Below, one piece after another: positions 27,202-31,776 of a stretch of 64,000 nt of DNA; position 1 is the stretch's first letter, and each line of letters opens with the position of its first letter. The DNA is taken from NCBI RefSeq assembly GCF_000023905.1, contig NC_013192.1, positions 2,356,001 through 2,420,000 of the forward strand. Reading direction: 5' to 3'. A model generated the notes under the pieces. The model saw only the letters and a list, made by a program, of their open reading frames with translations. It ran no database searches and was not told the origin of the DNA. The DNA comes from Leptotrichia buccalis C-1013-b. GTDB taxonomy: Bacteria > Fusobacteriota > Fusobacteriia > Fusobacteriales > Leptotrichiaceae. Both the position numbers and the translations under genes were made by a program.

Positions 27202-27203
<2 letters not shown>
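27147..27203. terminator. Bidirectional terminator between the phosphatase gene and bglA
   Basis: TTGGTGCTA (27147-27155) pairs with TAGCACCAA (27185-27193), with TTTTATTTTT to the right and an A-rich stretch to the left, so it can end transcription from both sides. Confidence 0.8.
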
Positions 27204-28644
<1,441 letters not shown>

Positions 28645-28730: not shown

Positions 28731-30629
28731 TTATTTGACAATTGTAATTAATTTTTCTCCAAATTCGATGTTTTCCTTATCTATTTCAATGACATCCAGA
28801 AATTCATCAGTATTAGTTACAATTACAGGCGTTGTCAAAACATATCCAGCCTTTTTAATTTCATCAATATCAAATTCAAGCATTAAATCACCTTTTTTTA
28901 CCTTATCCCCTTCTTTAACTTTAGGATAAAAATATTTCCCATCTAATTGAACTGTATCAAGTCCAACGTGAATTAATAATTCCGCTCCTGAGTCAGTTTC
29001 AATCGCAATTGCATGATTTGTTGGAAATAAAGTTACTATTGTCCCATCTGTTGGTGCCACAACCTTTCCTTCTGTTGGAACAACTGCCGCTCCTTTTCCT
29101 AAAGCACCTGAAGCAAATGCCTCATCTTCTGCTTCACTTAATTTTTTTATAGTCCCTTTTAATGGGCTGTAGACAACTTCTTTTTCTAACATTTTATTTT
29201 CTGTGTTTTCAGGCTTTTTGTCTACTTGTTTTTCATCAGTATTTCCAGTTACATTTTCATCTTCATAAAGTTTTGGAATTTTAACAAACATTGTTAGTAT
29301 AATTCCAAAAATAAGTGAAATTAGGCAAACTGCAGAATATATATAGAAATCTCTCCCAATTCCTTCTTTCGGAATATATGAAGAAAGGCTAAATAATCCA
29401 AGAGCACCTATTGTATAAGTTTTCATTTTAAAGAAGCCACCGATAGCTCCTCCGATTGCTGCTGAAATACAGGCTATGATAAATGGTATTTTCATTGGAA
29501 GTGTTACACCATAAATTCCAGGTTCAGTCACTCCAAATAATGCCGAAAATGCAGCTGGAATACTTAAATCCTTTACTTTTTGTTCTTTTGTCTTTAAGAT
29601 AATTACAAGCAATACTCCTAAAAGAGCAAATGAATGTGCCATCAAACTTCCGATTATAGTATCGTAACCTAATGTAGCGACATTATTCATAGCAATTGGT
29701 ACCAGTCCCCAATGTAATCCAAACATTACCATAACCATCCAAAGTCCTGCAAGAAGCCCTCCAGCAATAGTTGAATTTAGATTATACAAAGCTGTTAATC
29801 CTGTTCCTAAAGCTGCAGAAGCATTAGATATAACAGGTCCAATTACTAATAATGACAAAATATAAGTTATTAACAGAGTAAAAAACGGAACTAAAAATGT
29901 TCTTACCATTGCTGGAACAATTTTTTTAAATAATTTTTCGACGTGAGAACCAAGCCATACAGAAAATATTATAGGCATTACCGTACTTACATATCCTCCA
30001 GCTGGAATTACAATAGGAATCCCTAAAAAATGAGCTTTGTTAAATAATTCCATAGTTCCCAGACTAGGATAAATCAATCCCGCTGCAACCGCAATTGCCG
30101 TAAATCCGTTCATTCCAAAGTAATTAGCTGAAGTCCATGCTAGAAATACAGGAAGCAGCTGAAACAATCCATCTCCTGCAGCCTGTATTGCCAAATACGT
30201 TCCATCTGTATTTAATACGCCTAATGATAGTAAAATTGCCGCAATTCCCTTTAACATCCCAGCTGCAGCCATTACTCCCAGCATTGGCTGAAATAGTTTA
30301 CTAAGCACGTCAATCAAAAGGTTAAGGACGTCCTTAATATTTTTTATTTCCCTTTTAGGCTCATCTTTTTTTACATCCCCATTTAATCCCAAAAGAGGCG
30401 AAACTTCCGCAAACACATCAGCCACGTGATTTCCAATTACAACTTGAAATTGCTCTCCACTTATTAAAGCAGTAGCTACCCCATCCATCTTTTTCAATCT
30501 TTCCATATCAGCCTTATCATTGCTTTTCAGTTTAAATCTCAATCTCGTTACACAATGATGCAGACTAACAACATTTTCTTTTCCACCTACCGCTTCTACA
30601 ATATCTTTCGATAATTTTTCGTATTTCAT
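28731..30629 (-). CDS. bglF: PTS beta-glucoside transporter EIIBCA
   Basis: This 632-residue fused permease has a EIIB domain with phospho-Cys26 (SLHHCVTRLRFKLK), a EIIC membrane domain at about 105-455 with ten or so hydrophobic segments (GVTEPGIYGVTLP is the substrate loop), and a EIIA domain from about 480 with the phospho-His in ELLIHVGLDTVQL. It imports and phosphorylates aryl- or oligo-beta-glucosides, and in related systems it phosphorylates and inactivates the antiterminator when sugar is absent. GGAGG precedes the ATG. A RAT/terminator switch lies in its leader. Confidence 0.95.
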   Translation of the reverse strand: MKYEKLSKDIVEAVGGKENVVSLHHCVTRLRFKLKSNDKADMERLKKMDGVATALISGEQFQVVIGNHVADVFAEVSPLLGLNGDVKKDEPKREIKNIKDVLNLLIDVLSKLFQPMLGVMAAAGMLKGIAAILLSLGVLNTDGTYLAIQAAGDGLFQLLPVFLAWTSANYFGMNGFTAIAVAAGLIYPSLGTMELFNKAHFLGIPIVIPAGGYVSTVMPIIFSVWLGSHVEKLFKKIVPAMVRTFLVPFFTLLITYILSLLVIGPVISNASAALGTGLTALYNLNSTIAGGLLAGLWMVMVMFGLHWGLVPIAMNNVATLGYDTIIGSLMAHSFALLGVLLVIILKTKEQKVKDLSIPAAFSALFGVTEPGIYGVTLPMKIPFIIACISAAIGGAIGGFFKMKTYTIGALGLFSLSSYIPKEGIGRDFYIYSAVCLISLIFGIILTMFVKIPKLYEDENVTGNTDEKQVDKKPENTENKMLEKEVVYSPLKGTIKKLSEAEDEAFASGALGKGAAVVPTEGKVVAPTDGTIVTLFPTNHAIAIETDSGAELLIHVGLDTVQLDGKYFYPKVKEGDKVKKGDLMLEFDIDEIKKAGYVLTTPVIVTNTDEFLDVIEIDKENIEFGEKLITIVK

Positions 30630-30675
30630 ACGACAACCTCCTATATATTTATTTTTTATTTTATATAATTTTTTT

Positions 30676-30752
30676 CAAAACAAAAAGGCAAAACCTGACA
30701 ATAAAAAATCAAATTAAATAATAATTCAAATTTTTTATTCTCGGTCTTGCCT
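30676..30752 (-). terminator. Switchable terminator 2 in front of bglF
   Basis: On the minus strand the 5-prime arm starts GGCAAGACCGAGAATAAAA and the 3-prime arm ends GTCAGGTTTTGCC, followed by TTTTTGTTTT. The stem of about 21 pairs shares its first arm with RAT2, so the two structures exclude each other. Confidence 0.88.
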
Positions 30753-30771
30753 AATTTAATAGTTACAATCC
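30743..30771 (-). promoter_or_regulatory. RAT2, ribonucleic antiterminator site
   Basis: Read on the minus strand: GGATTGTAACT, then ATTAAATTA, then GGCAAGACC. This matches the BglG/LicT RAT pattern (GGATTGTTACTG ... GCAGGCAAAACC) with some substitutions. Binding of the antiterminator would stop terminator 2 from forming and allow bglF-bglA transcription. Confidence 0.85.
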
Positions 30772-30787
30772 TTTTTTGTATTTATTT

Positions 30788-31622
30788 TTATTTTTGAGTT
30801 ATTCTCTGAATATGTATCGCTAAATATGTTTTCTCTTCTTCTGATAATTTTCTTTTATATGTTTTTAAAAAATAATTCTCAATTTTCTCAGCACATTGAT
30901 AAGCCTTGGTATATTTTTTTCTTACTTCCTGATAAATAAAGTCATTATCATCATTTATCTGGGTATTTTTCATAATTCTTTGAAAGAAAAATTTTAAATG
31001 TGTCATAAATCTTTCATAACTAAGACTGCTTTCATCCAGTTCAATTCCAAATGTATATTTTATAATGTTCAGAATATCCTGTGTCATTTTTACAAGCTGC
31101 ATTGTTTCACCAATTTCATTTTTACTATTAATTCTGGCGTTCACGAGATGCAGTGCAATATTCGCTGCCTCATCTTCAGAAAATTTTATTCCCAGCTCAT
31201 CATTTATAAATTCCAGAGCTTTTAATCCGATTCCATATTCTTTTGGATAAAATTTCTTTATTTCCCACTGAAGAGCATTCACATAACTTATATTTTCCCT
31301 GTATCTTTGAATCGCAAAATTTAAGTGATCTGTCAATGTTACATAAATAAAGTCATTAAATTGTACATTCAATATATTTTTTGCATATTCAATAATATCA
31401 TAGGAAATTGAAACATAGTCTACAGGTATGTCTTCCAAAAGAATCTTAAATTTTTCAGATGTTTCATTATGCTTTAAAATAAACGTTTTTTCAATTTTAT
31501 CTCTATCTATCAAATCTCCAGCTTTTTTCCAAATGCTATGCCCTTGCCTGTTATGATAATTTCTTCCGTCTGGTTATTTTCTGAAATGATAGCATTATTA
31601 TTCAAAATTTTTTTATCTTCAT
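30788..31622 (-). pseudogene. BglG/LicT-family antiterminator with interrupted frame
   Basis: The protein binds RAT RNA through an N-terminal CAT domain and is controlled by two PRD domains phosphorylated by the PTS. PRD1 and PRD2 are intact, with the expected His residues (TLTDHLNFA, IALHLVNA, FMTHLKFF, AIHIQRI). The CAT domain is split. The canonical start (ATG 31622, GGGAG eight bases upstream) stops after six codons because an A-run (31608-31614) is one short. The frame that does encode LNNNAIISENNQTEEIII and GKGIAFGKK then stops at 31510 after a second A-run (31523-31528). A -1 shift at each run gives a normal protein. An in-frame ATG at 31650 avoids the first break but has no good ribosome binding site. 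Options: pseudogene, phase-variable gene, programmed frameshift at A AAA AAG, or sequencing error. Confidence 0.85.
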
Positions 31623-31659
31623 TTTTCAGACTCCCATTAACATTCATCATTTTAGATAG

Positions 31660-31713
31660 AAAAAACCTTGATTATTAAACACGAAAAAGATCATATTTAT
31701 TAACCAAGGTTTT
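31660..31713 (-). terminator. Switchable terminator 1 in front of the antiterminator gene
   Basis: Minus-strand arms AACCTTGGTTAATAAA and TTTAATAATCAAGGTT form a long stem followed by TTTTTCT. The first arm overlaps the AAAACC end of RAT1, so RAT1 and the terminator are mutually exclusive. Confidence 0.9.
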
Positions 31714-31735
31714 GCCTGCCTTACAGTAACAATCC
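31708..31735 (-). promoter_or_regulatory. RAT1, ribonucleic antiterminator site
   Basis: Read on the minus strand: GGATTGTTACTG, TAAG, GCAGGCAAAACC. It is a near-perfect copy of the RAT consensus bound by LicT/SacY/BglG, six bases after the predicted transcription start. Confidence 0.93.
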
Positions 31736-31747
31736 ACTTATGAAGTA

Positions 31748-31776
31748 AGTTTAGCACTTTTTTTCACATTTATCAA
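31748..31776 (-). promoter_or_regulatory. Promoter of the beta-glucoside operon
   Basis: Minus strand TTGATA (31776-31771), 17 bases, TAAACT (31753-31748). The transcript would begin near 31741, just before RAT1. I see no catabolite-response-like palindrome close by. Confidence 0.7.

Follow-up and report, generated by a model that had tools for sequence, protein, structure and literature searches.

The closest described systems are the bglGFB operon of Escherichia coli and the LicT/SacY regulators of Bacillus, which share the RAT logic. In E. coli, the genes stand in the order G-F-B, the regulator combines a CAT domain with two PRD domains, and bglG is flanked on each side by a RAT that overlaps a terminator; both a silent state and erosion of the operon have been described in natural isolates (PMC2646131). 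Two further systems concern frame changes at poly-A. The -1 frameshift of E. coli dnaX takes place on A_AAA_AAG, a heptamer far more shift-prone than others (PMC5009743), with a Shine-Dalgarno-like sequence approximately 12 nt upstream, and in the AT-rich genomes of insect endosymbionts, genes with frame breaks at poly-A are rescued by transcript slippage, which has been reported on runs of 9 A or on long runs (PMC5009743).

We analyzed a window of 64,000 nucleotides from the genome of Leptotrichia buccalis C-1013-b, which consists of one contig of 2,465,610 bases. The locus has the textbook bglGFB layout apart from bglG, which is broken; all features given below lie on the minus strand. The gene bglF (28731–30629) encodes an intact PTS EII-Bgl (EIIB-EIIC-EIIA) of 632 aa, and bglB (27202–28635) encodes an intact GH1 (phospho-)beta-glucosidase of 477 aa, both assigned by Pfam; the cognate PTS EII-Bgl and glucosidase that characterize operons of the BglG/LicT family are thus linked to the regulator gene. 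The RAT pattern, a putative antiterminator binding site, had just two matches in the genome, and these flank bglG: RAT1 (GGATTGTTACTGTAAGGCAGGCAAAACC, 31708–31735) on the 5′ side and RAT2 (GGATTGTAACTATTAAATTAGGCAAGACC, 30743–30771) on the 3′ side. As in other regulated operons of this family, each RAT overlaps a terminator, here a strong hairpin followed by a T run. The hairpin T1 (31662–31713) overlaps the end of RAT1 (fold of 31655–31740, -26.3 kcal/mol, z -5.5), and T2 (30686–30752), located between bglG and bglF, overlaps RAT2 (fold of 30675–30771, -28.7 kcal/mol, z -6.0). Rfam gave a weak match to bglG-cis-reg at 31639–31751 (E 0.003, 31 bits, under the gathering score of 80) in register with the leader, and no other RNA family at the bgl locus was found in that register. 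A candidate promoter, recognized by consensus match only, lies just 5′ of RAT1 (TTGATA-17-TAAACT with TG before the -10, 31748–31776, 9/12); the aligned site in the sister species, genome G011, is TTGACA-17-TATACT (11/12), so that the site in the window is the poorer match. In an intact system of this kind, BglG, freed when BglF transports sugar, would bind both RATs and block termination at T1 and T2.

The antiterminator gene itself occupies 30788–31650. The sequence-only reading had assigned it to the BglG/LicT type, which Pfam confirmed (CAT_RBD and two PRD domains), and the frames likewise bear out its description of a CAT part and a PRD part joined only via a -1 change at the A6 run 31523–31528. 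The CAT-encoding frame begins at ATG 31650, which has no Shine-Dalgarno sequence, and runs for 46 codons to a stop ending at 31510; it covers the N-terminal part, approximately 35 residues, of the CAT RNA-binding domain (E 2e-12, positions 4–34 of 57). The PRD frame (30788–31513), which is -1 relative to the CAT frame and open to 30788, contains the end of the CAT domain and both PRD domains intact (Pfam, 153 bits, E 4e-45). At the A6 run, which sequence and alignment with G011 identify as the second frame break, the CAT frame reads GGA AAA AAG CTG; the heptamer A_AAA_AAG is therefore in phase, and CAAGGG is located 12 nt upstream of the run, both as previously noted. The first break is an A7 run at 31608–31614, which had been placed correctly between the best-placed start codon and the CAT domain. 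The native start, ATG 31622, which corresponds in the alignment to codon 1 of the G011 orthologue and has a Shine-Dalgarno sequence, GGGAG (31631–31635), 8 nt on its 5′ side, reads ATG AAG ATA AAA AAA TTT TGA (31602–31622), that is, the 6-residue peptide MKIKKF and a stop, so that a second -1 change is required at A7 to enter the CAT frame. Thus, bglG carries two one-base shortenings in poly-A tracts less than 100 bp apart, and the CAT and PRD domains, which members of the BglG/LicT family hold in one protein, are split over two frames. Unlike LicT and SacY, the window copy has no continuous frame through the CAT domain.

Among 13 Leptotrichia genomes, bglG was present in two, that of the window and that of the sister species G011. 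Alignment of bglG from related Leptotrichia, which had been proposed as a check, revealed that the G011 copy encodes 278 aa in one open frame, with MKIKKILNNN at the N terminus, and that its PRD part is 94% identical to that of the window copy. At the start it has A8 compared with A7 in the window, and at the CAT junction it reads GGG AAA AAG GCT, where no shift is needed. The G011 protein thus unites the CAT domain with two PRD domains, and it matches the PRD structures of LicT (1tlv, 1h99) and the CAT structures of LicT and SacY (1l1c, 1auu). G011 also carries the same RATs and terminator as the window. The homologues of G086 (75%), G079 (67%), and approximately 20 more distant Fusobacteriota extend from CAT through PRD without a stop; the bglG of G085 (64–73%) is broken independently, near residue 50 and hence at a different place from the window copy. 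A scan of the genome contigs found only one relative, at 45%. Because the relatives have a single open frame, recent loss of the gene or a sequencing slip is likelier than a deliberate frame trick.

Taken together, we proposed that bglG was recently inactivated in the type strain of L. buccalis, within a typical but eroding bgl operon, and we assign this reading a probability of roughly 0.6. The option of a recent pseudogene, which the sequence-only reading had listed, is supported by two frame-disrupting lesions relative to intact orthologues, among them that of G011, by the rarity of such breaks in the assembly, by the accessory and eroding state of the operon, and by the independent break in G085. 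On the other side stands the undecayed remainder of the gene: beyond the two breaks, no decay was found in bglG, and relaxed selection on the remaining sequence was not observed. Between the window and G011, dN/dS was 0.073 over 241 PRD codons, 0.10 over codons 1–150 of bglF, and 0.23 over 29 CAT codons, where 3 and 3 changes are too few to weigh; for bglB, compared between the window and G005, it was 0.096. With bglG otherwise undecayed and bglF and bglB intact, the loss, if bglG is dead, must be very recent.

Two one-base poly-A contractions would have inactivated bglG under this proposal. No second CAT-domain protein, as a possible replacement for BglG, was found in the genome, which distinguishes this Leptotrichia from the E. 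coli case, and with the only such protein broken, T1 and T2 would be unopposed and bglF-bglB nearly silent. We infer that the DNA sequence is correct, that functional BglG is not made, and that the operon is hence off. The bgl operon of the type strain is therefore probably silent, and the earlier suggestion of a cryptic operon holds up. The route differs from that in E. coli, where H-NS silences the operon with bglG intact, whereas in L. buccalis the two frame breaks disrupt the regulator itself. We predict that the type strain is unable to induce its only RAT-controlled beta-glucoside operon; a search of the literature for sugar phenotypes of strain C-1013-b yielded nothing usable.

Second to inactivation ranks an error in the assembly: the gene may be intact in the organism, with two A-runs undercounted in a poor stretch beside the T1 hairpin, an explanation that we consider unlikely but take seriously. 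Pyrosequencing miscounts homopolymers, and both lesions are one-base shortenings of A-runs in a gene that is otherwise strongly constrained. The assembly, which dates from 2009, was produced from 454 GS FLX and Sanger reads, with 86 pseudogenes and a stated error rate of less than 1 in 100,000, which speaks against error (PMC3035221). We compared 1.23 Mb, about half, of the L. buccalis genome with 1.6 Mb of G011. Among 471–473 G011 genes with a counterpart (149,395 aa), only three had frame breaks inside the alignment. One encodes a TnpB transposase, another is a spurious ORF that covers a tRNA cluster, and bglG was thus the sole ordinary gene among them, which makes two independent errors in one gene unlikely. 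Gap counts from a DNA alignment of the full set of orthologues were set aside, as paired spurious gaps made them too noisy. In the aligned coding DNA, approximately 1,280 A/T runs of 5 or more were equal in length; of 130 coding runs of at least 7, two were shorter in L. buccalis and none was longer. One of the two is the A8 to A7 change of bglG. The other, A7 to A6, lies just after the start of a gene for a secreted protein with a signal peptide at approximately 99,450 of the same genome, outside the window; the DNA there is 96% identical to that of G011, and the A6 following the ATG closes the frame at its start, so that this gene is another candidate, either for variable tract length or for error, again toward the shorter run. 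Noncoding runs differed in both directions (10 shorter and 15 longer in L. buccalis), without a general bias toward shortness. Genome-wide undercalling of A-runs was rejected on these symmetric noncoding differences and the near-absence of coding ones.

If breaks were independent, 0.005–0.05 genes with two breaks would be expected, and the two breaks of bglG therefore probably share a cause: either constraint was relaxed because the gene was dead, or a single stretch of the consensus is bad. Such clustering, rare by chance, is what decay predicts. However, two noncoding A-runs near the 5′ end of bglG, beside the strong T1 hairpin, are each one A shorter than in G011, which fits a poor local consensus and keeps this possibility alive. 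On the other hand, the other A6–A7 runs within bglG read normally. The earlier view that scattered sequencing error is the less attractive explanation thus agrees with the near-absence of such breaks elsewhere, even though local error is the foremost alternative to inactivation.

Recoding is a minor possibility. Slippage of the ribosome or of RNA polymerase on the A-runs might yield full-length BglG in small amounts that suffice for antitermination, which we regard as highly improbable; the narrower version, in which low-level ribosomal slippage on A_AAA_AAG and A7 still gives some full-length BglG and makes the bgl switch leaky and noise-prone, is a shade less probable again. The resemblance to dnaX is real as far as the shift-prone heptamer and the Shine-Dalgarno-like CAAGGG are concerned, the first break likewise falls on an A-run, and tRNA-Lys(UUU) is present and tRNA-Lys(CUU) was not found in the half of the genome that was scanned. 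The likeness ends there. Downstream of the A6 site no stem-loop was found (-2.5 kcal/mol, z +0.9), two successive shifts would be required from the Shine-Dalgarno start, bglG having a second break, and the frame transition is not conserved. The single open frames of the orthologues in G011, G086, G079, and approximately 20 other genomes exclude a conserved programmed frameshift. The heptamer is also common: in the same half genome, A_AAA_AAG occurs in frame in 161 of 1,025 ORFs of at least 100 codons (16%; 195 sites, 22 of them with a Shine-Dalgarno-like 4-mer upstream), and A_AAA_AAR in 814 of the 1,025. Moreover, the AAA/AAG lysine codons are those most prone to A loss, and loss of an A from such paired codons leaves A_AAA_AAG, so that the heptamer is not independent evidence and its presence where a frame is broken at poly-A in an AT-rich genome is to be expected by chance, which calls for caution elsewhere. 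Programmed frameshifting of bglG, the dnaX-like mechanism given prominence by the sequence-only reading, was consequently rejected on the orthologues, the missing downstream structure, and the base rate of the heptamer. As in the insect endosymbionts, the breaks occur at poly-A in an AT-rich genome; the runs of bglG, however, are of 6–7 A, shorter than those on which transcript slippage is known (PMC5009743), and there is no sign of rescue.

Reversible slipped-strand phase variation at the A tracts, the phase switch of the earlier reading, is the least probable alternative: the breaks are indeed one-unit length changes in mononucleotide tracts, with A8 at the start in G011 and A7 in L. buccalis, but tracts of 6–8 A are ordinary (886 coding A/T runs of at least 7 in 471 orthologous genes) and seldom differ, the CAT-junction tract of G011 is interrupted (GGGAAAAAGG) and hence not a conserved switch, and a simple switch is unlikely given that two separate tracts close the native start and would have to switch together to reopen its frame.

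Inactivation of bglG would accord with the state of the operon in other members of the genus, in which sequence comparison indicates that bgl is accessory and is eroding differently in G011 and G005. In G011, a large deletion has joined approximately the first 168 bglF codons, with the frame kept, to approximately the last 15 codons of bglB, giving a frame of 184 codons (L004:2448-3002); the intact antiterminator of this species is thus left without an operon to control. In G005 (L068:3920-6484), bglB and the 3′ end of bglF (residues 578–632) are retained with a TnpB-like gene upstream, and bglG is absent. The bglB copy of G005 lies next to TnpB-like ORFs and adjoins an aminotransferase gene that also borders the G011 copy, and the window copy adjoins priA. 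These observations suggest erosion of the bgl operon in this oral genus, with different species losing different parts, comparable to that in E. coli (PMC2646131). G011 also has, just before L004 1390, a leader ORF of 10 codons (MMTVNGSLKK) that overlaps the bglG start by ATGA, an arrangement that suggests translational coupling of the two frames; in the window (31620–31650), the ATG corresponding to the start of this leader ORF reads directly into the CAT frame.
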